Below are positions 19,545 through 56,642 of a stretch of 64,000 bases of DNA, piece after piece. Position numbers and translations under genes: made by a program. Numbering within the stretch: the stretch's first letter is position 1; each line of letters opens with the position of its first letter. The stretch comes from a virus. The notes beneath the pieces are model-generated. The model did no database searches and had not been told where the DNA came from. It was given only the letters and a program-made list of their open reading frames with translations. The stretch is from IMG/VR virus record IMGVR_UViG_3300038696_000126, positions 1 to 64,000 of that record; one strand, 5' to 3'.

Positions 19545-19600
19545 TAACATTAAATAAAAGCCATGCGGAAAGCACGGTTTTTATTCTTGTGTTGTAGTGC
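19545..19600 (-). repeat. compact cassette junction hairpin (- orientation), closes an array
   Basis: On the - strand it starts at CTACAAC after the 66-aa gene, then ACAAGAATAAAAACCGTGC, a 5-nt loop, GCATGGCTTTTATTTAATG and GTTA. The arms are 19553-19566 and 19572-19585, pairing over 14 bp with G.T wobbles. It is nearly identical to the + strand compact sites at 33597, 46397 and 56588. Confidence 0.75.
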
Positions 19601-19601
19601 A

Positions 19602-19802
19602 TTAGTCACGCAAACTTTTTACCTCCCCTTCAATATGGTTTAGTATTTGGTTTCTTCCTACCTTTCTTTGTTCTTGTGCGACCTTGATTATCACACTTTC
19701 AATAGTACTTAATTCCTCTAATTTAGTTTTGTTCTGTGATTCTTTAGAGAAGAGTTTGCTCCATATTAAATCAGCTATTTGTTTTGATTCGTTACTTGTC
19801 AT
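19602..19802 (-). CDS. cassette-borne unknown protein (66 aa, - strand)
   Basis: Helical, charged protein, unrecognised. Its flanks show the cassette signature: GTTGTAGTGC upstream (19840-19831 on the - strand) is matched by its exact reverse complement GCACTACAAC downstream (19600-19591). This shows that the cassette system also occurs on the - strand, always oriented with the gene. Confidence 0.6.
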   Translation of the reverse strand: MTSNESKQIADLIWSKLFSKESQNKTKLEELSTIESVIIKVAQEQRKVGRNQILNHIEGEVKSLRD

Positions 19803-19830
19803 AATTATTATTTTTAGTTGTTAATTAAAC

Positions 19831-19898
19831 GCACTACAACAATTTGTATAGTGCATAGTTCGTTCCTCACAACGCCACCATACAATAGCGTTAGGCAC
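19831..19898 (-). repeat. cassette junction hairpin (- orientation)
   Basis: Read on the - strand: GCCTAACG, left arm GTATGGTGGC (+ 19874-19883), loop, right arm GCACTATAC (+ 19846-19854), then GTTGTAGTGC. The wobble G lies in the left arm relative to the gene direction, as in the + strand sites. Confidence 0.65.
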
Positions 19899-19918
19899 AA
19901 TTAAAAAAGATGCCTAAC
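19890..19918 (-). repeat. 29-bp gene-less mini-cassette (palindromic)
   Basis: Bounded by GTTAGGCA and TGCCTAAC with a central TCTTTTTTAATTGT (- strand). Two other 29-bp elements of the same design lie at 46375-46403 and 54987-55015. Confidence 0.6.
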
Positions 19919-19939
19919 ATTATATATAAATAATAAAAA

Positions 19940-20110
19940 TTACTTGCATTCCGTACAATGATAAACGCTTACTAATCTATCATCGTAAGAAAAAGTAGTA
20001 TTTATCATTTCAGTTCCTTTAGGTTGTTTTTTACCGCACCCCCAACATTCGTGTTTCTTCCTTGTTTTTCTTACTAGCTTGGTTTTAAAAACCTTTATTG
20101 CATCTTCCAT
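19940..20110 (-). CDS. 56-aa zinc-ribbon protein
   Basis: ATG at 20110 (- strand). Two CxxC pairs, CWGC (25-28) and CTEC (52-55), flank a strand-rich middle, and a very basic N-terminal half (KLVRKTRKKH) suggests nucleic acid binding. It is preceded by a half-site (TAACGCTAAATATATGAATAG) typical of cassette leaders and followed by a small junction site. Confidence 0.55.
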   Translation of the reverse strand: MEDAIKVFKTKLVRKTRKKHECWGCGKKQPKGTEMINTTFSYDDRLVSVYHCTECK

Positions 20111-20148
20111 AATCGTAATTTTAACTATTCATATATTTAGCGTTATGC
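20111..20148 (-). repeat. cassette half-site (left arm only, - orientation)
   Basis: On the - strand, directly after the Xre gene stop: GCATAACGCTAAATATATGA ending in ATAG, then an A/T-rich leader into the 56-aa gene. It resembles the + strand half-site at 33022 (TAACGTTTAGTATATGAATA). No right arm is visible. Confidence 0.45.
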
Positions 20149-25097: not shown

Positions 25098-25190
25098 TAA
25101 TGTTGAGTATGTGGTTTTGTAAGCCATAGAAAAAATTACAATTAAATGAATATAAACTTTGTGGGCTTATAAGCTATATACAGTGCTACC
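25098..25190 (+). repeat. cassette junction hairpin 1
   Basis: Left arm GTATGTGGTTTTGTAAGCC (25107-25125) and right arm GGCTTATAAGCTATATAC (25164-25181) pair with G.T wobbles. The outer cores are degenerate (TAATG and TGCTACC). The following CTACCCAC...AAAATTAC segment recurs inverted after the 45-aa gene. Confidence 0.65.
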
Positions 25191-25210
25191 CACTTTTAAA
25201 ATTACGTATT

Positions 25211-25348
25211 ATGAAAGGATTAAAAATGTTTTTTGAAATACTGGCTAAATACCAACAAATTAAGTTTGAGTTAAAAGGAAATTTTGAAAAGTTAAGGGTT
25301 AATCTTAGAATATATTATGCTGCTAAAATAAAAGATATGCATCAGTAA
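25211..25348 (+). CDS. cassette-borne 45-aa basic protein
   Basis: ATG 25211, product MKGLKMFFEILAKYQQIKFE..., basic and helical, unrecognised. Sequence before the gene (25185-25205) matches the reverse complement of sequence after it (25345-25365) at 17 of 21 positions, marking the two ends of one cassette. The stop codon lies inside the right-hand inverted copy. Confidence 0.55.
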   Translation: MKGLKMFFEILAKYQQIKFELKGNFEKLRVNLRIYYAAKIKDMHQ

Positions 25349-25360
25349 TTTTTATTGTGG

Positions 25361-25420
25361 GTAACGTTATATGTGTAAGATTAGTTGCGTGAATTAAGAA
25401 CTGAATTAAATAAAAATACA
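25361..25420 (+). repeat. cassette half-site with loop leader
   Basis: GTAACGTTATATGTGTAAG looks like the left arm of a junction hairpin, followed by the loop motif GAATTAAGAACTGAATTAAA that runs directly into ATG 25421. No right arm follows. A similar leader (TTGAATTAAGAACTGAAG) precedes the methyltransferase at 45495. Confidence 0.5.
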
Positions 25421-25747
25421 ATGACTAAAAAACAAGAATTAATAGAATATGTAATAGGTAATGAATTTATAACTAAACCTTGTTTACAAGACAAATTCAC
25501 TACACTTTTAGATGAAGCAATAACCGAGCAATTAATTTTACACGATGTTAGCGTTTCGTTGCCTACTGACCCTTTAATATTAGCCGAATACTTACACGAT
25601 AGTTACGAAATTATAGCCAAAAAAAGTAAATGGAATACGCAAGAAATCTGTAAAGTTTCATTTAAAGACTTACCTAACGAAAATAAAACTACTATGATTC
25701 TTTTGGCGGGTAAATTAATACTAGACTTTGTTGTCAATGAACGCTAA
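25421..25747 (+). CDS. unknown protein (108 aa) in a cassette
   Basis: Starts at ATG 25421 (MTKKQELIEYVIGNEFI) rather than the in-frame TTG at 25385, because the intervening bases match the non-coding loop leader seen elsewhere. A helical acidic protein, no family recognised. Its TAA stop lies in the CTAACG core of the next hairpin. Confidence 0.55.
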   Translation: MTKKQELIEYVIGNEFITKPCLQDKFTTLLDEAITEQLILHDVSVSLPTDPLILAEYLHDSYEIIAKKSKWNTQEICKVSFKDLPNENKTTMILLAGKLILDFVVNER

Positions 25748-25793
25748 CGTTTAGTATAAACCCCATTAAAACGAGGGTTTATACATTGTTAGT
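25743..25793 (+). repeat. cassette junction hairpin 3 (clean short example)
   Basis: GCTAACG, then GTATAAACCC (25754-25763) pairing perfectly over 10 bp with GGGTTTATAC (25775-25784), then GTTAGT. The preceding stop codon TAA is part of the CTAAC core. This is the easiest site to see by eye. Confidence 0.8.
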
Positions 25794-25827
25794 ATTAGTA
25801 CGGATTTATAAACTTAAAAATATAATT

Positions 25828-26007
25828 ATGAAAACAGCAGTAACAGTAACAACTTGCGTACAAATAGGCATTGAAACTTGGAGAGATGTATGCACTACAA
25901 AAGTTTTTGACGAAAACGCGACACTTGGAGAAATAGATAAATGGGTAAAAAGCATTGATAAAACAACACCATTGTCAGGCGTAAAGTTTGGTGATATAGC
26001 GGAGTAG
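25828..26007 (+). CDS. cassette-borne 59-aa protein
   Basis: ATG 25828 after TATAATT gives MKTAVTVTTCVQIGIETWRD..., a small alpha/beta protein; the upstream in-frame start would extend through the inverted repeat and is rejected. Flanks: GTTAGTATTAGTAC before and TAGTATTAATACTAAC after, an inverted match. Confidence 0.55.
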   Translation: MKTAVTVTTCVQIGIETWRDVCTTKVFDENATLGEIDKWVKSIDKTTPLSGVKFGDIAE

Positions 26008-26010
26008 TAT

Positions 26011-26075
26011 TAATACTAACGATGGTAATATGGTTAGTGGCTTTTTAGCCATTAAATATATTACGTGTTACCTAC
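26011..26075 (+). repeat. cassette junction hairpin 4
   Basis: Arms GTAATATGGTTAGTGGCT (26025-26042) and AGCCATTAAATATATTAC (26047-26064), 18 nt each, with wobble Gs in the left arm. Outer cores are CTAAC (26016-26020) and GTTACC (26067-26072). Confidence 0.75.
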
Positions 26076-26161
26076 TGGTGCGACTTTAAAAGACAGAACT
26101 TAAATTAATAACCGAACCTTTTCTATTATTTTTTAGAGCGAGGGCAAATTAAGATGATAAA

Positions 26162-26869
26162 ATGAACAACATAGAATTAATAAACAAAGATTGCTTTTTA
26201 GCAATAAGAGAATTAAAAGACAATAGTGTAGATTTAATTGTAACAGACCCGCCTTATGGAATAAACTTTACTAAAGGATATAAAAGCGGAAGCAAAGAGC
26301 TGGTACACGGAGATGATGGATTTTCTGTTATGGTTTTTGTAGATGAATTAATGAAAGAATTTAATAGAATACTAAAACCAAATAGCGCTATTTATATATT
26401 TACAAGATTTGATGTTTACCCCTATTGGTGGCTTAAAATGAAAAACCACTTTGATACTAAAAATCAAATTATATGGTTTAAGGGCGGTGGCGGTATGGGT
26501 GACCTTAAAGGGAACTTTAGTTTTAATTATGAGAGTATTATTTACGCTACGAATGGCAAACACCAGATAAGAGGAAAAAGAGATGGTAGTGTTTGGCAGA
26601 TTGGAAAATGTAAAGAAGGATTGCACGAAACACCAAAGCCAGTTGATTTAATAAGAAAAATAATACTTCATAGCTCCGACAAGGGAATGACTGTGTTTGA
26701 CCCCTTTATGGGAGCTGGAACAACTGGTGTCGCTTGTGTTGAAGAGGAACGGGATTTTATAGGAATAGAAATGATAAAATCAAATTATGATATAGCAGAA
26801 GCGAGGGTAGCAAAAAAAATAATAGAAAAAGACTTTGAAGCACCAACTTTGTTTAATGAACTAAATTAA
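26162..26869 (+). CDS. DNA methyltransferase, beta-class (N6-adenine or N4-cytosine), in a cassette
   Basis: Transfers methyl from S-adenosylmethionine to DNA. Catalytic motif DPPYGI at 29-34 near the N-terminus and the AdoMet motif FDPFMGAGTTG near the C-terminus, in the beta-class order. At 235 residues it is compact and has no endonuclease partner nearby, so it probably protects phage DNA from host restriction. Flanks GTTACCTACTGGTGC and GCACTTGTAGGTAAC are inverted copies, showing that it travels as one cassette. It is one of five methyltransferase-like genes here. Confidence 0.85.
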   Translation: MNNIELINKDCFLAIRELKDNSVDLIVTDPPYGINFTKGYKSGSKELVHGDDGFSVMVFVDELMKEFNRILKPNSAIYIFTRFDVYPYWWLKMKNHFDTKNQIIWFKGGGGMGDLKGNFSFNYESIIYATNGKHQIRGKRDGSVWQIGKCKEGLHETPKPVDLIRKIILHSSDKGMTVFDPFMGAGTTGVACVEEERDFIGIEMIKSNYDIAEARVAKKIIEKDFEAPTLFNELN

Positions 26870-26879
26870 GCACTTGTAG

Positions 26880-26930
26880 GTAACCCAAGGCTAAAAGCCT
26901 GTTTTAATGGCTTTTCAGCTAATGTTAGCC
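26880..26930 (+). repeat. cassette junction hairpin 5 (end of first + array)
   Basis: Starts GGTAACCC and ends GTTAGCC. Inner arms GGCTAAAAGCC and GGCTTTTCAGCT pair with one bulge. The next gene is the replication initiator, after a further 170 bp containing a terminator-like hairpin. Confidence 0.55.
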
Positions 26931-27025
26931 TCTTGTCAATTAATAGTGAAATAATGTGCGGTTAAACCAAAACGTTTCTGTACGTTTGCTCAACCGAGTG
27001 ATAGCGGTATTAAAACTTTATACAA

Positions 27026-29898: not shown

Positions 29899-29992
29899 TA
29901 ACGCTCAGGCTAAGGTTAATAGCCGTTAATCACTAACCATTAAACTATAACAAGACCTAATTAGGCTATTAATTTTAGCCAATGTTAGGCAC
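29899..29992 (+). repeat. cassette junction hairpin 6
   Basis: TAACG (29899-29903), left arm GGCTAAGGTTAATAGCC (29908-29924), right arm GGCTATTAATTTTAGCC (29964-29980), then GTTAGGC. Very similar in sequence to the site at 53707. The rest of the 29837-30000 gap shows nothing else. Confidence 0.7.
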
Positions 29993-30000
29993 TTTTAATT

Positions 30001-30162
30001 ATGGGACAATACAGATTTTCGATTTACGCACACTGGCAGATAGGATTAATGATAAAAATTGATGAATACTCGGTAGATATAAATCTGCCGTTTGTTACAA
30101 TGCATATTGCTATTAGTAAACACGCAAAAGGAATTGAACTATTTGGCAGATACATTGGGTAA
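30001..30162 (+). CDS. cassette-borne 53-aa protein
   Basis: ATG 30001 directly follows GTTAGGCACTTTTAATT. Product MGQYRFSIYAHWQIGLMIKI... is strand-rich and unrecognised. After its stop, TAATTGTGCCTAAC is the inverted copy of the upstream flank, so this gene alone fills a 200-bp cassette. Confidence 0.55.
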   Translation: MGQYRFSIYAHWQIGLMIKIDEYSVDINLPFVTMHIAISKHAKGIELFGRYIG

Positions 30163-30166
30163 TTGT

Positions 30167-30215
30167 GCCTAACACAGGAATATAAACCGTAAAACACAGT
30201 AGAGTTGCAATAACT
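30167..30215 (+). repeat. compact-type half-site closing a one-gene array
   Basis: GCCTAACACAGGAATATAAA followed by CCGTAAAAC matches the left arm of the compact sites (CTAACACAAGAATAAAAACC) but no right arm follows before ATG 30227. Confidence 0.5.
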
Positions 30216-31612: not shown

Positions 31613-31699
31613 ACACGGGTAGCTTAAATGGTAAAGCGTTTGGTAATTGCAAACCCAAAATATAAGAGTAACTCTTTGGTTCGAGTCCCTTTCCGTGTG
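31613..31699 (+). tRNA. tRNA-like element, anticodon loop would read AAT; atypical
   Basis: Acceptor arms ACACGGG (31613-31619) and TCCGTGT (31692-31698) pair over 7 bp, followed by GCA. TA at positions 8-9, a D arm GCTT/AAGC with AAATGGTA loop, and a perfect anticodon stem GTTTG/CAAAC around GTAATTG. A long variable arm (AAGAG/CTCTT) and TTCGAGT T-loop follow, but the T stem has only two good pairs and base 26 is missing. It could be a divergent long-variable-arm tRNA, a decayed tRNA or a tRNA mimic. Confidence 0.5.
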
Positions 31700-31737
31700 C
31701 AATAAAATTACAATAAATTAATAAAAGCATAATTATA

Positions 31738-33021: not shown

Positions 33022-33060
33022 TATAACGTTTAGTATATGAATAGTGGCGAATAAATACGC
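33022..33060 (+). repeat. cassette half-site
   Basis: ATAACGTTTAGTATATGAAT followed by AGTGGCG is the left arm of a junction hairpin; the sequence then runs as an A-rich leader into ATG 33076. No right arm. Confidence 0.5.
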
Positions 33061-33075
33061 ACTAAATTTTGAATT

Positions 33076-33309
33076 ATGACAGATACTAATAAAAATACAC
33101 AGACCACCGAATTAAGCACTAAACAGCCATTATTTATAGATGGTGTTATGCCCCGTTTTTTAAAGACAAAATACTCTTTAGAAGAACTAGACCAATATGT
33201 TATGGAATTATCATCAAGAACAGACAAACACATTCATCGAGGTAAATTAGATGATATTGAAAAACTAATCAGATGGCGAAGAAGATACGATGCTCTAAAT
33301 GGGGCATAA
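33076..33309 (+). CDS. unknown small protein (77 aa), cassette region
   Basis: Unrecognised helical protein with a basic end (HRGKLDDIEKLIRWRRRYD). Its stop TAA is part of the next half-site TAACGG. No inverted flank was found, so cassette membership is less certain. Confidence 0.5.
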   Translation: MTDTNKNTQTTELSTKQPLFIDGVMPRFLKTKYSLEELDQYVMELSSRTDKHIHRGKLDDIEKLIRWRRRYDALNGA

Positions 33310-33345
33310 CGGTTAGTATATGATTTCGGGCGTAAATAAAGACAG
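33307..33345 (+). repeat. cassette half-site
   Basis: TAACGGTTAGTATATGATTT then CGGGCG resembles the half-site at 33022; the TAA is the stop codon of the upstream gene. Leader ACAGAATTTAAGTAATAAA precedes ATG 33369. Confidence 0.5.
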
Positions 33346-33368
33346 AATTTAAGTAATAAAAAAAAATT

Positions 33369-33599
33369 ATGAGTGAGCAAATAGATAACAAAGAAACAGA
33401 AACTAAGCCTGAATTATATACAGTGTTAGCAACAGTAGTTTCTATGGTAAAAGAGGAAGTTGCGGAAGAATACGGGTTTAAAAAAGCCTTTATTGTAGAT
33501 ACAAAATGGGATTACGCTATGATGATACATCACCGAACAAAAAAGCAAATAGAAATGTATGAAAGGCTTTGTATGAAGTTAGCTCACTATTGTTGCTAA
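33369..33599 (+). CDS. unknown small protein (76 aa), cassette region
   Basis: Helical, with a polar N-terminus (NKETETKPELYTVLATV). Unrecognised. Last gene before the compact hairpin; its stop codon is the TAA of the hairpin's CTAAC core. Confidence 0.5.
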   Translation: MSEQIDNKETETKPELYTVLATVVSMVKEEVAEEYGFKKAFIVDTKWDYAMMIHHRTKKQIEMYERLCMKLAHYCC

Positions 33600-33650
33600 C
33601 ACAAGAATAAAAACCGTGCATTACAGCATGGTTTCTTATTTAATGTTATT
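33596..33650 (+). repeat. compact cassette junction hairpin closing an array
   Basis: CTAACACAAGAATAAAAACC then GTGC pairs with GCATGG and TTTCTTATTTAATGTTA. It sits exactly where + and - genes converge (33599/33649), so it may also act as a two-way transcription stop. Confidence 0.75.
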
Positions 33651-42212: not shown

Positions 42213-42266
42213 CGTTTAGTATAAGACCCGTTTTTTTATGGGTTTTATATAGTGTTAGCATTAGTA
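42210..42266 (+). repeat. cassette junction hairpin at the start of the second array
   Basis: ACAACGTTTAGT, left arm ATAAGACCC (42221-42229), right arm GGGTTTTAT (42240-42248), then GTTAGCATTAGTAC. The left core is imperfect (CAAC instead of TAAC). Confidence 0.7.
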
Positions 42267-42285
42267 CGGATTTAAAACAACAAAT

Positions 42286-43143
42286 ATGATTGATATAAGA
42301 TTAAGTGATAATTTAGAATTAATGGCAGAAATGCAAGATAATACAGTAGATTTAATTTACTGTGATATACTTTATGGAACAGGCAGAAAATTTGCAGACT
42401 ACCAAGATTTAAAACCTAAACGTGAAATTATAGAAGAACATTACATACCAAGAATTAAAGAAATGCACCGTATTTTAAAAGATACAGGAAGTATTTACCT
42501 GCAAATGAGCGAAGAAATTTTACATTGGATCAGATGTGTAATGGATGATACTTTTGGGTATGAGCGTTTTTTAAGACAGATTTATTGGAAACGAACAGAT
42601 AATAAAGGTAGCAGTAAAGCTAAGTGTAAAACATTCCCAAATTCTATTGACTGCATTGTTTGTTATTCAAAATCTATCGAGTTCACATTCAATTTACAGT
42701 ATTCAGAATATTCACAAAAAAGAATTAATGAGTTTAGACACGAGGACAAAAAGGGTAAATACCGCTGGCAGACCCTAAAAACTTATTCCAATGATAGATA
42801 TGAAAAATTAATAAGCGAAGGAATGATTAAAACACCTCAAACAAGCGTATACCCACAGTTTAAGCAGTATTTAATGGACAGTAAGGGTGTTATATTAGAT
42901 AATAATTGGCAGGATTTGTATTACGTTAAGTACAACGCAAAATACAATACTGAAAAACCCAAAGCATTAATTGAGCGAATAATAAAAGCAAGTAGTAACG
43001 AAGGGGATTTAGTTGCTGACTTTTACGCTGGAAGTCATACTACAGGGGAAGTGGCGTTAGAGTTAGGGCGAAGCTATATAGGATGTGATATAAATCCGAG
43101 AAGCTTAGAGATAGGTAAAGAAAGATTAAAAAGATTTTTTTAA
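42286..43143 (+). CDS. DNA methyltransferase-like protein with altered catalytic motif; C-terminus replaced
   Basis: Beta-class layout, but the catalytic motif IV reads DILY (27-30) where DPPY is expected, so activity is doubtful. The AdoMet motif is DFYAGSHTTGEVA instead of DPFxGxGTT. Otherwise the fold is well preserved, including a target-recognition region around 85-200. A homing-type HNH gene follows after 11 bp, and behind it lies the coding tail of a related methyltransferase. The simplest reading is that the present C-terminus came with the endonuclease. Upstream flank GTTAGCATTAGTAC pairs with the flank at 43889, beyond the HNH gene. Confidence 0.75.
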   Translation: MIDIRLSDNLELMAEMQDNTVDLIYCDILYGTGRKFADYQDLKPKREIIEEHYIPRIKEMHRILKDTGSIYLQMSEEILHWIRCVMDDTFGYERFLRQIYWKRTDNKGSSKAKCKTFPNSIDCIVCYSKSIEFTFNLQYSEYSQKRINEFRHEDKKGKYRWQTLKTYSNDRYEKLISEGMIKTPQTSVYPQFKQYLMDSKGVILDNNWQDLYYVKYNAKYNTEKPKALIERIIKASSNEGDLVADFYAGSHTTGEVALELGRSYIGCDINPRSLEIGKERLKRFF

Positions 43144-43158
43144 TACATACTTTTATGT

Positions 43159-43166
43159 TATCTTTG
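43159..43166 (+). promoter_or_regulatory. promoter element for the HNH endonuclease gene
   Basis: TATCTTTG fits the TAnnTTTG element and lies 16 bp before ATG 43182. It suggests the endonuclease gene carries its own promoter, as expected of a mobile gene, and argues for the internal start over ATG 43155. Confidence 0.5.
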
Positions 43167-43181
43167 AACAAATTTAAAAAT

Positions 43182-43793
43182 ATGATTAAAAACGAGAAAA
43201 TATCTGATTTGAAAAGGCATAACTTAACAGGTGTTAAAGTTGGCAAACTTACAGTTTTAAATATATCAGAAAAAAGAAACAAACACAATAGAATTATGTG
43301 GGATTGTATTTGTGAATGTGGTAATAAAAAAACAGTGGCAGCCGATATGCTAAACAAATCATTAAGAGGTGGAATAGGGACTAAAAGTTGCGGATGTCTA
43401 AGAAACAATTCACACAATAAAATCAAGGATAGAGTATATGCAGTGTGGTTACAATTATATAACTCAAGTACATTAAAAAAAGAAACTTATAGATTGAAAA
43501 AGGGGTGGAGTAAATCTGACATTGCATTTGAAACTTTTAAAGCTTTATGTTCAACTAAATGTTTTTATTGTGGAGCAATTGGTTCTAATAAAGCGATGGA
43601 TATAAAAGAAGGAAAGCTAATATCAGATACAACTATAAGATATAACGGACTTGATAGGGTTGATAGCTCTATCGGTTATATGGAAGAAAATATAATTCCT
43701 TGTTGTAAGTATTGCAATAGAGCAAAAAGTGATACGACTGATACGGAGTTTTTGGCTTGGATAAAAAGGGTATATAAGTATAATTTTAAATAG
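43182..43793 (+). CDS. HNH homing endonuclease (203 aa)
   Basis: Site-specific nuclease of the free-standing phage HNH type. The N-terminal zinc-bound DNA-binding module reads WDCICECGNKKTVAADMLN with a later KSCGCL; the HNH nuclease is CFYCGA, YNGLDRVDSSIGY and NIIPCCKYCNRAKSD, in the usual order. Start at 43182 is chosen because ATG 43155 overlaps the promoter-like TATCTTTG. It sits between a methyltransferase gene and a relic of another methyltransferase tail, indicating insertion near the 3' end of that gene. Confidence 0.85.
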   Translation: MIKNEKISDLKRHNLTGVKVGKLTVLNISEKRNKHNRIMWDCICECGNKKTVAADMLNKSLRGGIGTKSCGCLRNNSHNKIKDRVYAVWLQLYNSSTLKKETYRLKKGWSKSDIAFETFKALCSTKCFYCGAIGSNKAMDIKEGKLISDTTIRYNGLDRVDSSIGYMEENIIPCCKYCNRAKSDTTDTEFLAWIKRVYKYNFK

Positions 43794-43895
43794 TTTACAA
43801 CCGCAGAAGTGTGTAAGGATTTAAACAGAAATTTTATAGGTTGTGATATTTCTGAAAAGGCAGTAGCTATCGGATTAAAAAGGACTAAGTATTAA
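43794..43895 (+). pseudogene. relic C-terminus of a DNA methyltransferase
   Basis: After the HNH stop, the same frame reads FTTAEVCKDLNRNFIGCD then ISEKAVAIGLKRTKY and a TAA. This aligns with the C-terminus of the methyltransferase at 42286 (HTTGEVALELGRSYIGCD...). It lacks a start and an N-terminus, so it is a displaced 3' fragment. It ends in TATTAATGCTAAC, the natural cassette end matching the flank at 42254. Confidence 0.75.
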
Positions 43896-43955
43896 TGCTA
43901 ACGTTTGTATATGAAGCGTTGAGGAACGAAATTATTTTATATACCGTGTTATATT
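43896..43955 (+). repeat. cassette junction hairpin
   Basis: TGCTAACG (43896-43903), left arm GTATATGAA, right arm TTTTATATAC, then GTTATATTTTAGTGCGG. Follows the methyltransferase relic directly. Confidence 0.7.
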
Positions 43956-43991
43956 TTAGTGCGGTTAATTAAAAACAAAACTTAATAAATT

Positions 43992-44264
43992 ATGATAAAA
44001 ATACAAACATTTAGAAACCCGGAAGGCTACACTTTAAACCAACTAATAAGAGAAAAGCCAACTTGCTTTAATGGTAATGTTACTGTAGAAAAGTACGAAA
44101 TAACAGTGGTAAAGATTGAAGAGCCAAAAGAAGTTTATAGAGAAAGACTACAAAAACTTTGGGATGAATGTGATAACCACCATCATTGGACACCATTAAA
44201 GGGAAAGGCAAAAGAATTAGGCGTTGAATTGATTGGTGATGCTGGTAGTAAACTAAAAAGATAG
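43992..44264 (+). CDS. cassette-borne unknown protein (90 aa)
   Basis: Alpha/beta N-terminus and a basic helical C-terminus with a His-rich DNHHHW patch. Unrecognised. Flanks GTTATATTTTAGTGC before and GCATTAAATATAAC after are inverted copies; the right copy covers the stop region. Confidence 0.55.
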   Translation: MIKIQTFRNPEGYTLNQLIREKPTCFNGNVTVEKYEITVVKIEEPKEVYRERLQKLWDECDNHHHWTPLKGKAKELGVELIGDAGSKLKR

Positions 44265-44280
44265 CATTAAATATAACGAA

Positions 44281-44526
44281 ATGAATAAAAACAGTAACGA
44301 CATGAAAGAACAACTGACAATAATAAGTGATGACCTTAATCATGGCATCATAACCGAAAACGAAGCACGTACCAAGTTATTGATTTTACTTGGTGTTAGC
44401 GGTAGGGCTTCCCAATTAGAAGAAGATGCCTTTAAGTTAATAAACAGCTATTGCAAAAATGGACTTAAAAAACCTGACTTGGTTAAAAAAATGGAATGGA
44501 TTACAGGTAGTTGTAAAATGAGTTAG
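44281..44526 (+). CDS. unknown helical protein (81 aa)
   Basis: Begins 16 bp after the previous gene, at a fused boundary where only the right-hand flank of the previous cassette remains. An internal ATG at 44302 is an alternative start. Helical with several Lys/Glu pairs, unrecognised. Confidence 0.5.
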   Translation: MNKNSNDMKEQLTIISDDLNHGIITENEARTKLLILLGVSGRASQLEEDAFKLINSYCKNGLKKPDLVKKMEWITGSCKMS

Positions 44527-44538
44527 CACCGCATTACC

Positions 44539-44668
44539 GCTAACGGTAGGTACATGGTTTGTAGGCATAGACAAGCGATAACTTTCGGATTAAACAACTA
44601 CTTAAATAAATAAAAATAAAGATTGAATTATTAACCAACTGCCTATAAATTATATACTTTGTTATATA
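44539..44668 (+). repeat. cassette junction hairpin (long loop)
   Basis: CTAACG, left arm GTACATGGTTTGTAGGCA (44550-44567), about 70-nt A-rich loop, right arm TGCCTATAAATTATATAC (44640-44657), then GTTATATACTGGGCGG. Mismatches are mostly G.T with G on the left. Confidence 0.75.
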
Positions 44669-44697
44669 CTGGGCGGTTTAAAACACAAAATTTAATT

Positions 44698-44949
44698 ATG
44701 AAAACTAAATTAGAATTACCAAGCAATCCAAGAATGCACAATCCTGATGGAATGTATGCAAGTGAGGCAAGAATTGAAGATTATTATTCTTTGAGAGATT
44801 ATTTTGCAGGAAAAGCAATGAATGGTTATTTATCTGCAAGCGTTGACGTTATTAATCGTGGATTTCCAATAGACGCACATAACATAGCTAATGAATGCTA
44901 TATAATTGCTGACGCTATGATAAAAGCCCGTTCTGAAAACGAATTATAG
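44698..44949 (+). CDS. cassette-borne phage protein with YFAxKAM motif (83 aa)
   Basis: Start at ATG 44698; the longer frame would run through the right flank of the hairpin. Contains YSLRDYFAGKAMNGYLS, the LxxYFAxKAMxG motif seen in many small phage proteins of unknown function, and a C-terminal helix AYxIADAMIKAR-like. The next cassette (45118) holds a paralogue. Flanks GTTATATAC...GGC and GCCTTGTATATAAC match inversely. Confidence 0.65.
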   Translation: MKTKLELPSNPRMHNPDGMYASEARIEDYYSLRDYFAGKAMNGYLSASVDVINRGFPIDAHNIANECYIIADAMIKARSENEL

Positions 44950-44958
44950 CCTTGTATA

Positions 44959-45090
44959 TAACGTTCATGTATAAGATTTGAAGCGGATAAAAAAGCACAA
45001 ACCAAACGAATAAACACAGAATTAAATAAATAGTAATAACCTTTAATAAAGACCTAAAACCGCTTTTAATTTTATACGGTGTTAGCAACT
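44959..45090 (+). repeat. cassette junction hairpin (long loop)
   Basis: TAACG (44959-44963), left arm GTATAAGATTTGAAGCGG (44969-44986), right arm CCGCTTTTAATTTTATAC (45060-45077), then GTTAGCAACTGGGCGG. The loop contains GAATTAAATAAATAG, the leader-like motif. Confidence 0.8.
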
Positions 45091-45117
45091 GGGCGGTTTT
45101 AAAAACGAAAATTAATT

Positions 45118-45393
45118 ATGAAAACACAAAACAAACCCGCCTTTCCTGTTGAAGTATCAATAGCTGATAATGGTAATTTAAGAGGTTCGCAAACTTCTAA
45201 CTTTTCTGGCTATGAAATGGGATTAACAAAACGTGAATACTTTGCATCTAAAGCTATGCAAGGTTTACTATCTAATCCTGAATGGATGAAAGAATACAAG
45301 GGCGAAAAGTACTTAATGCAAAGTGATATATTAGCTGATATTGCGATAAAAACAGCCGACAATTTATTATCTAAACTCTCAAACGAAGACTAA
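45118..45393 (+). CDS. cassette-borne phage protein with YFAxKAM motif, paralogue (91 aa)
   Basis: Contains GLTKREYFASKAMQGLLSNP and a helical C-terminus (DILADIAIKTADNLL), matching the 83-aa protein one cassette upstream in motif and order. Similar proteins are widespread in phage genomes without assigned function. Flanks GTTAGCAACTGGGC and GCCTTGTTGCTAAC are inverted copies. Confidence 0.68.
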   Translation: MKTQNKPAFPVEVSIADNGNLRGSQTSNFSGYEMGLTKREYFASKAMQGLLSNPEWMKEYKGEKYLMQSDILADIAIKTADNLLSKLSNED

Positions 45394-45405
45394 TTGTAGC
45401 CTTGT

Positions 45406-45440
45406 TGCTAACGTATAGTGGTATGGTGCGTAGCCTTAAA
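45406..45440 (+). repeat. left arm of a split junction hairpin
   Basis: TGCTAACG then GTGGTATGGTGCGTAGC (45418-45434). Its partner GCTATGCACTATACCAC lies at 46356-46372, after the methyltransferase gene, so the loop of this hairpin contains a whole gene. Confidence 0.7.
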
Positions 45441-45494
45441 ATGCACGAAGATTGAATTAAGAACTGAAGTAATAATTAAAATATTTTTAAAAGC

Positions 45495-46274
45495 GTGGGC
45501 AAAAAAATTGACTTATATAACGAGAATTGTGAAGATACTATGAAGCGTATTGAAACTGGAAATGTAAAATTAATACTTACAGACCCACCTTATAACACAA
45601 CACAATGTGATTGGGAATATGAATTGGATTTGCCTAAAATATGGCAACAATGGGAACGTATTTTAGCAGATGATGGTGTTATAATTGTGTTTGCTGATGA
45701 ACCATTTACAAGTAAATTAATAGTTTCTAAACTTGGGTTTTTTAAATACAGAATTACTTGGGATAAAATGACTGGTTCTAATTTCTTGAATGCTCACAAA
45801 ATGCCATTGAAACAAACAGAAGATGCTGTTGTATTTGCAAAGGTTAAGAACGGACAATACACTTATAACCCAATTTTAACAGATAAGCCAAAACAAAATA
45901 TAAGACCTGAAGGAAAACCAAAAAAGAAAAAAGCATCTACTTATGGCGAACATAATGGAAGTTTTCACGAATCTTATGATAATACTAAAAGTTACCCAAC
46001 TAACTTACTTTCTTTATCTTCTAAAACTGATGAATGCAACCCATTAAATAGAGTACACCCAACACAAAAACCAATTGATTTAATGCGTAATTTGATTATT
46101 ACCTACTCTAATAAAGGTGATTTAGTTTTTGATGGTTATTCTGGAAGTGGAACAACTGCACACGCTTGTATTTTAGAGAATAGAAATTTTATAGGTGCTG
46201 AACTTGATAAGACTTACTTTGATAAAAGCATTGAACGTTTAAGATTAGAACAGATGCAAACCAAATTGTTTTGA
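45495..46274 (+). CDS. DNA methyltransferase, beta-class adenine/N4-cytosine, inside a hairpin loop
   Basis: GTG start at 45495 (MGKKIDLYNENCEDTM). Catalytic DPPYNTT (30-36) and the C-terminal AdoMet motif FDGYSGSGTTAHA are intact, with VHPTQKPIDLM before it, typical of phage N6-adenine methyltransferases. No partner nuclease. The gene occupies the loop between the two arms of one junction hairpin, unlike other cassettes where genes lie between hairpins. A 17-bp direct repeat with one mismatch (AGCGTGGGCAAAAAAAT) starts at 45492 and 46287, flanking the gene. Confidence 0.85.
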   Translation: MGKKIDLYNENCEDTMKRIETGNVKLILTDPPYNTTQCDWEYELDLPKIWQQWERILADDGVIIVFADEPFTSKLIVSKLGFFKYRITWDKMTGSNFLNAHKMPLKQTEDAVVFAKVKNGQYTYNPILTDKPKQNIRPEGKPKKKKASTYGEHNGSFHESYDNTKSYPTNLLSLSSKTDECNPLNRVHPTQKPIDLMRNLIITYSNKGDLVFDGYSGSGTTAHACILENRNFIGAELDKTYFDKSIERLRLEQMQTKLF

Positions 46275-46286
46275 TAAAAACAAAAG

Positions 46287-46303
46287 AGCGTTGGCAAAAA
46301 AAT
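46287..46303 (+). repeat. right copy of a 17-bp direct repeat flanking the methyltransferase
   Basis: AGCGTTGGCAAAAAAAT differs in one base from the copy at 45492-45508, which overlaps the gene's GTG start. It could be an insertion duplication or the product of cassette recombination. Confidence 0.5.
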
Positions 46304-46355
46304 ATTTTAATTATGGTTAGACAAACAAAAATGATTGAATTAGGCACGAACCTAA

Positions 46356-46382
46356 GCTATGCACTATACCACGTGTTAGCAA
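46356..46382 (+). repeat. right arm of the split junction hairpin
   Basis: GCTATGCACTATACCAC then GTGTTAGCA. Pairs with 45418-45434 across the 780-bp methyltransferase gene with two G.T wobbles. Confidence 0.7.
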
Positions 46383-46403
46383 ATCGTTTTAATGTTTGCT
46401 AAC
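46375..46403 (+). repeat. 29-bp gene-less mini-cassette
   Basis: Bounded by GTTAGCAAA and TTTGCTAAC with TCGTTTTAATG in the centre. Same length as the elements at 19890 and 54987. Confidence 0.6.
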
Positions 46404-46453
46404 ACAAGAATAAACACTGTGCTTTTTGCATTGTGTTTTATTTAATGTTATGC
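46397..46453 (+). repeat. compact cassette junction hairpin closing the second array
   Basis: TGCTAACACAAGAATAAACA then CTGTGC, loop, GCATTGTGTTTTATTTAATG and GTTATGC. Downstream genes no longer show cassette junctions. Confidence 0.75.
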
Positions 46454-53704: not shown

Positions 53705-53706
53705 CG

Positions 53707-53795
53707 GTTTGGCTAAGATTAGTAGCCTAAGAAATGAACTAATCAATTAAAAAACTAAGCATCATAAGGCTATTAATTTTAGCTTTTGTTAGGGT
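53707..53795 (+). repeat. cassette junction hairpin opening the third array
   Basis: Left arm GCTAAGATTAGTAGCC (53712-53727), right arm GGCTATTAATTTTAGC (53768-53783), then GTTAGGGTGC. Closely related in sequence to the site at 29899. Confidence 0.7.
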
Positions 53796-53814
53796 GCGTT
53801 AATAATTGTTAAAA

Positions 53815-54066
53815 ATGAACACATTAGTCTCAATTAGAACAAACATTATTTACAGCAAAGAAGTAACAGGCAAAGAAAAATACAACCGTAACCAAGAATT
53901 AATACTGCTTGTCGATAAGCCTAAATACACCTACTCAAATGAGGGTGAAATAGTAAGAGAAAGAGGGCTTGAAGAATTAAGATTTACAGTAAGCGAAAAA
54001 GGCTTTGAGCAACTTATTAAAATGCTTGAAAAAATGAAAGAAGTAGAGCCTGACGAATTAGGGTAA
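53815..54066 (+). CDS. cassette-borne unknown protein (83 aa)
   Basis: Start ATG 53815 rather than TTG 53806. Strand-rich first half, helical second half (EKGFEQLIKMLEKMKEVEPD). Flanks GTTAGGGTGC (53788-53797) and GCACCCTAAC (54068-54077) are perfect inverted copies, a clean example of matched cassette ends. Confidence 0.6.
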   Translation: MNTLVSIRTNIIYSKEVTGKEKYNRNQELILLVDKPKYTYSNEGEIVRERGLEELRFTVSEKGFEQLIKMLEKMKEVEPDELG

Positions 54067-54067
54067 T

Positions 54068-54115
54068 GCACCCTAACGTTTAGTATAAGAGCCGTTTTTT
54101 AATGGCTTTTAAACA
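54068..54115 (+). repeat. cassette junction hairpin, right core decayed
   Basis: GCACCCTAACGTTTAG, left arm TAAGAGCC (54086-54093), right arm GGCTTTTA (54104-54111). The expected GTTAG is replaced by ACACTAAA. Confidence 0.6.
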
Positions 54116-54150
54116 CTAAATTTTATTAATAATTAAAAACTAAAAGTAAA

Positions 54151-54333
54151 ATGGAAATAACAGTAAATCAGATTCGAGAAAAGCAAAAGCTACTCGAAAA
54201 AGACCTATCTACCAAGCTCAACCAGTTTGAGCGGGAGACTGGAATTAAGGTAACGGGTGATATAAAATGGGGATATACACAAGAAAAAAAACAGCATTGG
54301 ATAAGTTTAAATTACTCTAATCCATTTATGTAA
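54151..54333 (+). CDS. unknown small protein (60 aa)
   Basis: Helical first half (IREKQKLLEKDLSTKLNQF) and strand-rich second half (GDIKWGYTQEKKQHWISLNY). Unrecognised. Follows a junction with a lost right core. Confidence 0.5.
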   Translation: MEITVNQIREKQKLLEKDLSTKLNQFERETGIKVTGDIKWGYTQEKKQHWISLNYSNPFM

Positions 54334-54364
54334 TATTTTCCTGACGTTTTTAATATGAATAGTA

Positions 54365-54616
54365 ATGGAAGAAATAAAAGATAAGATTTTAGAAGAGTAC
54401 AAAAAAGGAAATATTGTAGTTTCTGGATTTGAAGGCTTACAAGTTATGCCTATAAAGGATTTTATAAAGGAACCAACGGAAGGAATGCTTTATGACTTAA
54501 ACAGAAACGAAGCAGTTGTATTAACTTTTTTACCAGACCCTAAGTGGGTAAATGATTATGCAGTTGCTAAAGTTATTGCTGAATTAAAAAACAGAATTAA
54601 AGAACTTGAAGGTTAG
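54365..54616 (+). CDS. unknown protein (83 aa)
   Basis: Alpha/beta, ends in a helix (VAKVIAELKNRIKELEG). Preceded by a weak half-site (TGACGTTTTTAATATGAAT). The stop codon TAG begins the next junction. Unrecognised. Confidence 0.5.
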   Translation: MEEIKDKILEEYKKGNIVVSGFEGLQVMPIKDFIKEPTEGMLYDLNRNEAVVLTFLPDPKWVNDYAVAKVIAELKNRIKELEG

Positions 54617-54715
54617 CATTAAATATAATGATTGGGCTATGAATTGAAGCCAAGTAAAAATGTTCAATTCGATTACAAATCTTCATAGGCTTTTATTTAT
54701 AGCCTGTGCTATAAA
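54617..54715 (+). repeat. cassette junction hairpin
   Basis: Left arm GGCTATGAATTGAAGCC (54635-54651), right arm GGCTTTTATTTATAGCC (54688-54704) pair over 17 nt with G.T wobbles. Outer cores degenerate (ATAATG and GTGCTATAAAG). Confidence 0.65.
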
Positions 54716-54723
54716 GCGTTTTT

Positions 54724-54876
54724 ATGGAAACTGACAAAGAAAAATTAGAAAGATTAATGGATGATGAATATGACACTATTAAAAAACTAAAACAAAAGAA
54801 GAAAGATATTGATAGGCAAATTGATAACAGTTTTGTAAATTTAGATAAATATGGGGCAAGGTTAAATTCTTTATAA
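54724..54876 (+). CDS. cassette-borne 50-aa coiled-coil protein
   Basis: ATG 54724; charged helix with heptads (KEKLERLMDDEYDTIKKLKQ). The stop TAA lies in CTTTATAACGG, the inverse of the upstream CTATAAAG. Unrecognised. Confidence 0.5.
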   Translation: METDKEKLERLMDDEYDTIKKLKQKKKDIDRQIDNSFVNLDKYGARLNSL

Positions 54877-54964
54877 CGGCAATAATAAAGTTAGCACTGG
54901 TTGACCTGAAAAGATGGACTACATAGAGTGCCAAAACTCTACAAACCCTATTACGGATGCTAAC
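54874..54964 (+). repeat. small junction plus gene-less cassette
   Basis: TAACGGCAATAATAAAG then GTTAGCA (54890-54896) and, 61 bp on, TGCTAAC (54958-54964). The segment between carries no plausible ORF. It may be an eroded cassette. Confidence 0.5.
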
Positions 54965-54986
54965 GCCTTTATTATTTATATTTATT

Positions 54987-55015
54987 GTTATGTGCTTTTT
55001 TAATTGCATCATAAC
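54987..55015 (+). repeat. 29-bp gene-less mini-cassette
   Basis: Bounded by GTTATGTGC (54987-54995) and GCATCATAAC (55006-55015), centre TTTTTTAATT. Third element of this exact length in the window. Confidence 0.55.
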
Positions 55016-55100
55016 GTTTTGTGTATGGCAAGTAGCCGAAGCACGGACGTTAAAATTTAGGACGAACCTTAATAGGCTATTTGCTATACACGGTGTTAGC
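55012..55100 (+). repeat. cassette junction hairpin (17-bp stem)
   Basis: TAACG, left arm GTGTATGGCAAGTAGCC (55021-55037), right arm GGCTATTTGCTATACAC (55075-55091), then GTTAGCATTAGTACGG. Only two wobbles, both G left/T right. Confidence 0.8.
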
Positions 55101-55135
55101 ATTAGTACGGGATTTGAAAAACTAAAGATTGATTT

Positions 55136-55756
55136 ATGAAAGTATTAATTACACACGAAGAAAGCCAAACGGTTATGACTGCATTTTTAGAAGCTGGGCA
55201 CGATGCTTATAGTTGTGACCTGCTTCCAGCAAGTGGTAAATACCCTGAAAGACATTTACAAATGGATTATTTAAAAGCTATTGAAAAAATAAAGCCTGAC
55301 TTTTTAGGAATGCATCCTGAATGCACAAGGCTAACTGTAGCAGCTAATAAATATTATAAACCTGAATATGCGGAAAGGTTTCCAACTATACAACAGGACA
55401 GGCTTGAAGCTGTTTCTCATTTCTTTAATTGTGCAATGGCTCTGAACAAAATAGGCAAGGGGTATATAGAAAATCCAATAGGAATAATGAGCAGACTTTA
55501 TCGGAAGCCTAACCAAATTATACAGCCTTATCAGTACGGACATACGGAAAGAAAAAGTACTTGTTTATGGCTTGCCGGGCTACTAAAATTAAAACCAACA
55601 AATATAGTTGAGCCTGATATTATAATACATAAAAGCGGTAGAACAGATAGTAGGCTTCATTTTGAAACGCTTAAACTACCAAAAGAAGAAAGGCGAAAAG
55701 CACGAAGCAAAAGCTTTGTTGGTATCGCGAATGCTATGGCTGAACAATGGACGTAG
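55136..55756 (+). CDS. cytosine-C5 methyltransferase-like phage protein, in a cassette
   Basis: Starts MKVLITHEESQTVMTAFLEA then HDAYSCDLLP, the AdoMet-binding pattern of small phage Dcm-like proteins, followed by MHPECTRLTVAA where the family usually has PPCTHL, and GYIENPIGIMS (ENP motif). The catalytic loop has PEC instead of PPC, so activity is uncertain, although the cysteine remains. 206 residues, typical of the phage family. Flanks GTTAGCATTAGTAC and GTATTAATGCTAAC are inverted copies identical to those of the 42286 cassette. Confidence 0.72.
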   Translation: MKVLITHEESQTVMTAFLEAGHDAYSCDLLPASGKYPERHLQMDYLKAIEKIKPDFLGMHPECTRLTVAANKYYKPEYAERFPTIQQDRLEAVSHFFNCAMALNKIGKGYIENPIGIMSRLYRKPNQIIQPYQYGHTERKSTCLWLAGLLKLKPTNIVEPDIIIHKSGRTDSRLHFETLKLPKEERRKARSKSFVGIANAMAEQWT

Positions 55757-55762
55757 TATTAA

Positions 55763-55857
55763 TGCTAACGTATTGTATATGGTTTGAAAGCCAACTACAA
55801 ACGCTGATTAAATGAACGAATATTAACATGGCTTTTTAACTATATACGTTGTTAGCC
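55763..55857 (+). repeat. cassette junction hairpin
   Basis: TGCTAACG, left arm GTATATGGTTTGAAAGCCA (55774-55792), right arm TGGCTTTTTAACTATATAC (55829-55847), then GTTAGCCACAGTAC. The loop is 36 nt. Confidence 0.8.
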
Positions 55858-55873
55858 ACAGTACATTTTAGAT

Positions 55874-56593
55874 ATGAAATACATGGGAAGCAAGGCGAGA
55901 TACTCTAAAGAAATTTTGCCTATAATATTAAAAACCCGAAAGCCTGAACAGCACTACATAGAGCCTTTTGCGGGTGGAATGAATATGATTGATAAAGTAG
56001 AAGGTAACAGGATAGCAAACGACATTAACTATGAGCTTATGCAGATGTGGGAAGCCCTTGTTAATGATGATTGGCTACCTAATAAAATTATAAGCAGAGA
56101 GTTTTACAACAGCATACGAGCGGACAAAACAAATTATGAACCGTGGCTTGTTGGATGGGTAGGATTTAACTGTAGCTACTCAGGTAAGTATTTTGGTGGA
56201 TATGCAGGACAAGTAAAAACAAAAGATGGAACAATACGAGATTACCAAGCCGAAGCGCATAAGAACATTAAAAAGCAAATACCTAACCTGAAGGGTGTTG
56301 TTTTTACGAATAAAGAATACTGGAACTTACAAATACCACCAAACAGTATTATATATTGCGACCCACCTTACCAAAATACGACTAAATACGCTACTGATTT
56401 TGACCATAATTTGTTTTGGGAGTGGGTTAGAAAAATGAGCAAACAAGGGCATAGCGTTTGGGTAAGCGAATATAACGCACCGAATGACTTTGAGTGTGTG
56501 TGGGAGAAGGAGGCTCGAAGCTCACTTAGCGCAAATGGTACAATAGGAGGAAGCAAAATTTCGGTTGAAAAGCTGTTCTTGTATTGTGGCTAA
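55874..56593 (+). CDS. D12-class N6-adenine DNA methyltransferase, in a cassette
   Basis: Dam-like adenine methyltransferase. MKYMGSKARYSKEIL, AdoMet motif HYIEPFAGGMNM (about 37-48), ANDIN, VGFNCSYSGKYFGGY and catalytic YCDPPYQNTTKY are all present in the D12 order. 239 residues, without a partner nuclease. The stop codon TAA is part of the CTAAC core of the closing hairpin, and flanks GTTAGCCACAGTAC / GTATTGTGGCTAAC match inversely at 13 of 14 positions. Confidence 0.9.
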   Translation: MKYMGSKARYSKEILPIILKTRKPEQHYIEPFAGGMNMIDKVEGNRIANDINYELMQMWEALVNDDWLPNKIISREFYNSIRADKTNYEPWLVGWVGFNCSYSGKYFGGYAGQVKTKDGTIRDYQAEAHKNIKKQIPNLKGVVFTNKEYWNLQIPPNSIIYCDPPYQNTTKYATDFDHNLFWEWVRKMSKQGHSVWVSEYNAPNDFECVWEKEARSSLSANGTIGGSKISVEKLFLYCG

Positions 56594-56642
56594 CACAAGA
56601 ATAAAAACCGTGTTTTCATGGTTTCTTATTTAATGTTAGCCT
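56586..56642 (+). repeat. compact cassette junction hairpin closing the third array
   Basis: GGCTAACACAAGAATAAAAA then CCGTG, 4-nt loop, CATGG and TTTCTTATTTAATG, GTTAGCC. Its right end contains the stop codon of the convergent - strand gene, so both neighbouring genes end inside it. Confidence 0.78.

Follow-up and report, generated by a model that had tools for sequence, protein, structure and literature searches.

Two neighbouring methyltransferase genes in a phage genome are each bracketed by short sequences that are complementary to one another and differ from those around the other gene. Why should the two ends of one gene match, and does the match mean that the gene moves as a unit? The window, by which we mean the whole 64,000-nucleotide stretch of DNA analysed here, comprises positions 1-64000 of a virus record (IMGVR_UViG_3300038696_000126) that is 71,690 bases long. 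The first 95 bases of this record recur as its last 95, so the phage genome is circularly complete, and it contains terminase, portal, structural and replication genes. Among sequenced phages, the last 12 kb of the window have DNA matches only to Flavobacterium phages, over one methyltransferase gene. This is probably a phage of marine Bacteroidota, and Flavobacteriaceae are its presumed host family. A tRNA-Ile with the anticodon AAT, which is unusual for bacteria, is predicted at 31613-31700 with weak Rfam support (31.4 bits).

Cassette ends and hairpins in the window

The interval 55095-56594, all on the plus strand, holds two cassettes with a hairpin between them. Cassette 1 (55095..55769) runs from the start box GTTAGCATTAGTAC to the end box GTATTAATGCTAAC, which pair at 13 of 14 positions, plus a G·T at position 11, and carries a DNA methyltransferase(-like) gene (55136-55756; phrog_757, PHROG match 6.4e-55). 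Cassette 2 (55851..56594), whose start box GTTAGCCACAGTAC likewise pairs with its own end box GTATTGTGGCTAAC, carries a D12 N6-adenine methyltransferase gene (55874-56593; Pfam PF02086, 2.9e-19). The hairpin between the two (55770..55850) is attC-like, with two G·T pairs, 12 of 13 signature pairs and 49.1 bits on our covariance model, and a second one lies upstream of cassette 1 (55016..55094; 13 of 13 pairs, 55.2 bits). A terminal hairpin, ACAAGAATAAAAACCGTG...CATGGTTTCTTATTTAAT, follows cassette 2 at 56595..56632; its covariance model scores are low, and the same variant closes the arrays that end at 33.6 kb and at 46.4 kb and recurs near 19.55 kb on the opposite strand.

Further arrays lie elsewhere in the window, on the plus strand unless stated, and were delimited by combinations of end pairing, the covariance model, the hairpin signature and Pfam matches. 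Directly upstream of cassette 1, the array at 53706..55094 has hairpins at 53706-53787 and 54630-54707 and small ORF cassettes at 53788-54077 and 54708-54877 (pairing, covariance model, signature). At 25185..26931, small ORF cassettes accompany an N6_N4_Mtase cassette (26067-26884; Pfam PF01555), with hairpins at 25366-25546, 25749-25787 and 26021-26066 (signature, covariance model). A hairpin at 29903-29983 is followed by a small ORF cassette at 29984-30173 (29903..30173; own-end pairing, covariance model). At 33028..33644, hairpins at 33028-33144 and 33311-33424 precede cassettes at 33145-33310 and 33425-33600, and here the ORFs run from the hairpin loop through the start box, as several ORFs of these arrays do. 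The array at 42213..46451 consists of an N6_N4_Mtase cassette (42254-43902), small ORF cassettes (43948-45412) and a unit at 45413-46403 (Pfam, pairing, covariance model, signature). In this last unit the hairpin itself spans 962 nt (45413-46374; 13 of 13 signature pairs) and holds a complete N6_N4 methyltransferase gene (45495-46274) in its loop, after which comes an ORF-less 29-nt box pair. ORFs that start in loops, together with this methyltransferase gene within a loop, suggest that a gene and the hairpin ahead of it make up a single unit. On the minus strand, an array at 19545..20141, the genes of which are also minus, has hairpins at 20141-19919 and 19893-19837, an end-box pair at 19918-19890 and an ORF cassette at 19840-19591.

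ORF-less box pairs of exactly 29 nt occur three times (19890-19918 on the minus strand, 46375-46403 and 54987-55015), with variable arms and a similar core (TTTTAATxG). Many attC-like hairpins in other phages have the same loop, TCGTTTTAATG.

The initial annotation described five inverted pairs of cassette ends as unbroken matches of 10-21 bp. All five are present, but the pairing is interrupted. In the 17 cassettes that we delimited, start and end of the same cassette form 9-10 bp, a G·T (or a mismatch and then a G·T) follows at positions 10-11, and usually about 3 bp more are paired, to a limit of about 14 positions. The further claim that ends match their own partner and not those of other cassettes holds when the pairings are reshuffled, as that annotation had proposed: at positions 8-14, own pairs gave 81 Watson-Crick pairs out of 119, against a mean of 41.2 and a maximum of 63 after reshuffling, and none of 20,000 reshuffled sets reached 81. 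At positions 4-7 the own pairs gave 67 of 68, against 33.6, a core score that is inflated as the 17 cassettes were picked by eye, partly on their matching ends. A set of 11 intervals delimited by hairpins only showed the same trend more weakly (35 against 23.2 at positions 8-14, with 77 of 10,000 reshufflings reaching 35), because sites that escaped detection lie inside several of these intervals. Where hairpins alone set the limits in chromosomal arrays, many intervals show 10 bp followed by a G·T at position 11. An automatic search for own-end pairs that made no use of hairpins returned 2233 hits against 1116 in shuffled sequence, which is only twofold, and was left out of the evidence. The start motif GTTAGYATTAGTACGG has 76 exact matches in the viral collection, about 49 of them with a matching end box within 4 kb.

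Pairing beyond the 7-bp core, which had been singled out as a peculiarity of these cassettes, turns out to be shared with class 1 integrons. Agreement lengths read by eye from fetched sequences were 11 bp in aadB, VIM-2, aacA4, catB3 and VIM-4, 8 bp in arr-3 and 7 bp in dfrA1, and agreement was poor in OXA-1. The argument from extension therefore points to ordinary integron behaviour, and novelty on this ground is ruled out by the class 1 control. What integrons lead one to expect, a cassette start that pairs with its own inverse core, was found in the phage cassettes and in chromosomal arrays, with class 1 as the control. The boxes TAAC and GTTA/G are present at nearly all sites and agree with the integron motifs RYYYAAC / GTTRRRY, although the full RRRY consensus is often loose.

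Each hairpin lies after the end box TAAC of one cassette and before the start box GTTA of the next. Comparison of 45 high-scoring hairpins showed that, read along the coding strand, they follow one strict plan: 5-6 unpaired bases, 6 bp, a G·T, 4 bp, a second G·T, further pairs, the loop, 3 unpaired bases and GTT. A search with the exact plan found 35 nonredundant sites, and none once the two G·T pairs were replaced by T·G, A·C or C·A; the plan itself was absent from shuffled sequence and from class 1 integron regions searched in the same way. The G falls in the 5' arm and the T in the 3' arm 72 times, against 5 reversed, while A·C and C·A together account for 13. Positions on which the search did not depend are also fixed, for instance an A-T pair and the T immediately before GTT. 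The L arm of the recombining strand showed no extrahelical bases of the kind found in classical attC sites; bulges are not systematic, and stem positions 7 and 12 are occupied instead by fixed G·T pairs. Rfam gave no match for the hairpins. Both G·T pairs are present at 11 sites of the window, and no tyrosine recombinase is encoded in the whole record, so the window would qualify as a CALIN (at least two attC sites, no integrase), provided that the hairpins count as attC. Over all loci, hairpin spans cluster near 80, 117 and 185 nt, which suggests loop sub-types that may be hidden among the hairpins of differing loop length.

Natural moves in sister phages and arrays in chromosomes

The Baltic Flavobacterium phages vB_FspS lillamy, mumin, morran and sniff and their relatives (PMC7077304) bear the same kind of arrays, and between near-identical isolates single units have moved, been gained or been lost scarlessly, with joints at the TAAC box after the gene. 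Lillamy9-1 and lillamy9-3 have equal genome lengths and carry a 439-bp unit at two different places 3.6 kb apart, all joints being clean; a 506-bp unit of mumin6-1 is missing from mumin6-3 and mumin6-4; and morran9-1 has one unit more than lillamy9-6. In these isolates the travelling unit is the hairpin, the start box, the gene and the end box. It had been supposed that a downstream attC travels with the gene; in the phages it is the upstream hairpin that does so, and exchange takes place at the TAAC box after the gene. Across all near-identical pairs we collected 66 segment junctions, not all of which are independent events, and TAAC lay within 15 nt of 46 of them (background 6.8%), with only GTTA/G in 4. 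The boxes shared at the joints of moved units amount to 5-7 bp of microhomology. In phages, and in one chromosome too, breakpoints fall at AA^C, the 5' box of the strand that folds, the exact bond being ambiguous inside the shared box. Precise excision and reinsertion of single cassettes is seen both in the moves between isolates and in the identical cassettes repeated in that chromosome (locus L143, below).

Methyltransferases dominate what is shared. Our phage has methyltransferase cassettes in common with Lillamyvirus and Muminvirus, phages to which it is otherwise unrelated, at up to 84% amino-acid identity, and in the search made the only other common proteins were a small helix-turn-helix protein and an exonuclease. 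When the proteins of array phages were clustered, methyltransferases were the only widely shared ones and the commonest cargo, which rules out a candidate enzyme common to all of these phages. A phage-encoded tyrosine recombinase was also rejected as the mover: the whole 71.7-kb record encodes none of the Pfam phage-integrase family, and only 3 of 50 array-bearing virus records have one. That methyltransferases are the commonest cargo suggests evasion of restriction, and the authors of the Baltic study tentatively link plating differences on LMO6 to methyltransferase genes (PMC7077304). Relatives by terminase (L077-L088, at most 46% amino-acid identity) have no signature hairpins and are too distant for an empty-site comparison.

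From an exact 19-mer, which had 2 matches in the species-genome collection, the family appeared to be confined to viruses. This was ruled out with the covariance model of the hairpin, which finds matches in 36 of 101 Flavobacteriaceae genomes. In several Flavobacteriaceae chromosomes, hairpin arrays start within a few kb of a tyrosine recombinase of about 375 amino acids, and hairpins occur in the flanks of 13 of 20 such genes. At the same bit score their density there is about 93 per Mb, against 0.27 per Mb genome-wide, a ratio that is approximate as the genome-wide search had stricter filters. Seven recombinases intended as negative controls for co-location were dropped: most of them are adjoined by hairpins too, so they are not controls, and the genome-wide density is the better baseline. 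Some Flavobacteriaceae genomes carry the recombinase without detected hairpins. The protein carries a SAM_4 and a phage-integrase domain; it shares 33-37% identity and a similar ending with IntI1 but lacks the long IntI1 insert, and it scores 203-216 bits on the integron-integrase model, below the cut-off of 265. A complete integron, in the sense of an IntI with the diagnostic insert scoring over the family cut-off, was therefore not found; the phage has no IntI, and the chromosomal recombinase falls below the cut-off and is without the insert. No classical IntI above that cut-off was present in any of 301 Flavobacteriaceae genomes, which could explain why such arrays have been overlooked so far.

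One chromosomal array (L143; G083:C1:729000-748900) contains several 100%-identical cassettes of 430-2000 bp in differing contexts, the mark of recent shuffling or copying inside one chromosome; their breakpoints are at the AAC box on the strand that folds, just as they are in the phages. In G078, G073, G019, G052 and other genomes, many of the recombinase genes that lack the insert are only a few kb away from the end of a contig, which is what one would see if repeated arrays broke the assemblies. Cassettes of the phage type (GTTAGCATTAGTACGGATT) occur together with a tyrosine recombinase (about 1163-1897) on a 19-kb contig of a Lacinutrix MAG (L089, CAKZMU010000082.1). This contig is possibly a phage, or a link between the phage and chromosomal arrays.

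Phage and chromosomal arrays differ in gene polarity. In classical integrons the non-coding strand folds, and IntI cuts the 5' box of the folded strand. Genes of the chromosomal arrays agree with this arrangement (127 antisense to the folding strand against 3 sense), with the site downstream of the gene, whereas in the phage arrays 33 genes are sense and 6 antisense. A single chemistry, with the cut at the 5' box of the folded strand, would then carry the downstream hairpin along in chromosomes and the upstream one in phages, since phage genes have the opposite orientation to the folding strand relative to chromosomal integrons.

A proposed mechanism and its alternatives

We consider it likely that the phage arrays, with their reversed gene polarity, are CALINs: integrase-less arrays that belong to an integron variant of Bacteroidota and whose units are mobilised in trans by a host integrase. 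The mobile unit would be the attC-like hairpin, the GTTA start box, the gene and the TAAC end box. The coding strand of the hairpin would fold with its two fixed G·T pairs, and a tyrosine recombinase of the IntI/Xer type would exchange the 5' box (AA^C) of the folded strand. The excised unit would be a circle that brings its two boxes, start and end, together and thereby lengthens the stem to about 14 positions; it would then reinsert at a different TAAC box. The host is the most likely source of the enzyme, acting in trans, and the candidate, linked by position, is the IntI-related recombinase of about 375 amino acids without the IntI insert that is found beside the same hairpins. The integron analogy drawn in the initial annotation is well supported by the attC-like hairpins, the scarless single-cassette moves and the chromosomal arrays beside an IntI-like gene. 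The same evidence speaks well for its view that cassette ends meet in an excised circle: a circle brings the two ends of one cassette together, so that they come to match each other and not those of neighbours, and units were probably excised in this form. The benefit may be the swapping of methyltransferases against host restriction. We give roughly even weight to a broader proposal, namely that Flavobacteriaceae harbour a widespread integron lineage (insert-less IntI-like enzyme, attC with two G·T pairs) missed by standard tools, and that its cassettes have been reversed by lytic phages, which borrow the host's enzyme in trans and so share, even where unrelated, a market in methyltransferase genes.

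It could be argued that these are ordinary cassettes from classical IntI-bearing integrons, either relics or moved occasionally by a classical IntI. Their architecture and boxes are attC-like, their own-end pairing resembles that of class 1 cassettes, and class 1 IntI1 recombined one of two tested sites of Polaribacter phage P12002L in E. coli, according to Qi et al. 2023 (PMC9892861). In that phage we find 7 hairpins of the present signature with own-end pairs, the recombined site not necessarily being among the 7. This published recombination speaks for our main reading as well. We nevertheless regard this origin as unlikely, given the want of any classical IntI over the cut-off in Flavobacteriaceae, class 1 regions devoid of the hairpin signature, the reversed polarity of phage genes, and moves that are recent, between near-identical isolates. 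Homologous or microhomology recombination between phages might also move the units, the hairpins acting in RNA (in termination or processing) and the boxes being incidental homologies. Phages are mosaic, the shared boxes supply the microhomology, and in phages it is the coding strand that folds, as RNA would need, with each G·T then a G·U. The chromosomal copies of the hairpins, however, fold on the non-coding strand, so a role in mRNA is not the common reason for them; breakpoints lie at the AAC box and seldom at the equally conserved GTTA box (46 against 4), and arrays adjoin an IntI-like gene. This reading thus seems improbable to us. Very improbable, in our judgement, is single-strand transposition of the IS200/IS605 kind by a Y1 HUH transposase, with TAAC as the target and the hairpin as the left end. 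It would account for a strand-specific hairpin at one end and for insertion 3' of a short fixed sequence, but Y1_Tnp is absent from our phage (G000), lillamy9-1 and mumin6-1, so that a Y1 mover could be conceived only as a host copy acting in trans, and it is a tyrosine recombinase, not Y1, that adjoins the chromosomal arrays. To our knowledge, neither head-to-tail arrays nor own-end pairing are features of the IS200/IS605 family.

Comparison with known systems

The arrays share strand-specific hairpins and a short fixed target with IS200/IS605 elements, and differ from them in that the phages tested have no Y1 transposase, the units form tandem arrays, and the neighbour in chromosomes is a tyrosine recombinase. 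With class 1 cassettes they have in common the pairing of a start with its own end (7-11 bp for most class 1 cassettes), although class 1 lacks the hairpin signature, uses a different enzyme and has genes antisense to the folding strand. Sedentary chromosomal integrons with IntI likewise have a tyrosine recombinase next to an array whose cassettes bear folded recombination sites; the G/TT box (gene strand) as the place of exchange and own-end pairing are shared too. Unlike in those integrons, the recombinase here is without the IntI insert and scores below the integron model cut-off, its gene has the same direction as most array genes, and the sites have two G·T pairs and not extrahelical bases; the G·T pairs suggest a simple strand-selection rule, unlike the one based on extrahelical bases.

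We found no earlier description of such Bacteroidota arrays in the open-access literature, which does not prove that none exists, and the IntegronFinder 2.0 paper names one Bacteroidetes case, Salinibacter ruber M1 (PMC9024848). Qi et al. 2023 (PMC9892861) reported attC arrays that have no integrase and carry methyltransferase genes from lytic phages, among them P12002L, and the lack of an integrase and the methyltransferase cargo are common to their arrays and ours. In the part of that paper considered here, the sites are described as attC in general, and the G·T signature, reversed polarity, natural moves and chromosomal enzyme candidate do not appear.

A divergent IntI-like enzyme beside long Flavobacteriaceae arrays would extend integrons to a clade in which hardly any complete ones have been recorded. 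For phages, the cassette system offers a route by which unrelated lineages trade methyltransferases, which may protect them against restriction. Moreover, the Lillamyvirus and Muminvirus isolates are culturable, near-identical and already differ by single-cassette moves, and so the mobility of cassettes in lytic phages is testable in the laboratory. Phage CALINs were already known; what is new here is a distinct attC-like structure, a distinct candidate enzyme, the reversed polarity of phage arrays and natural evidence that their cassettes move.
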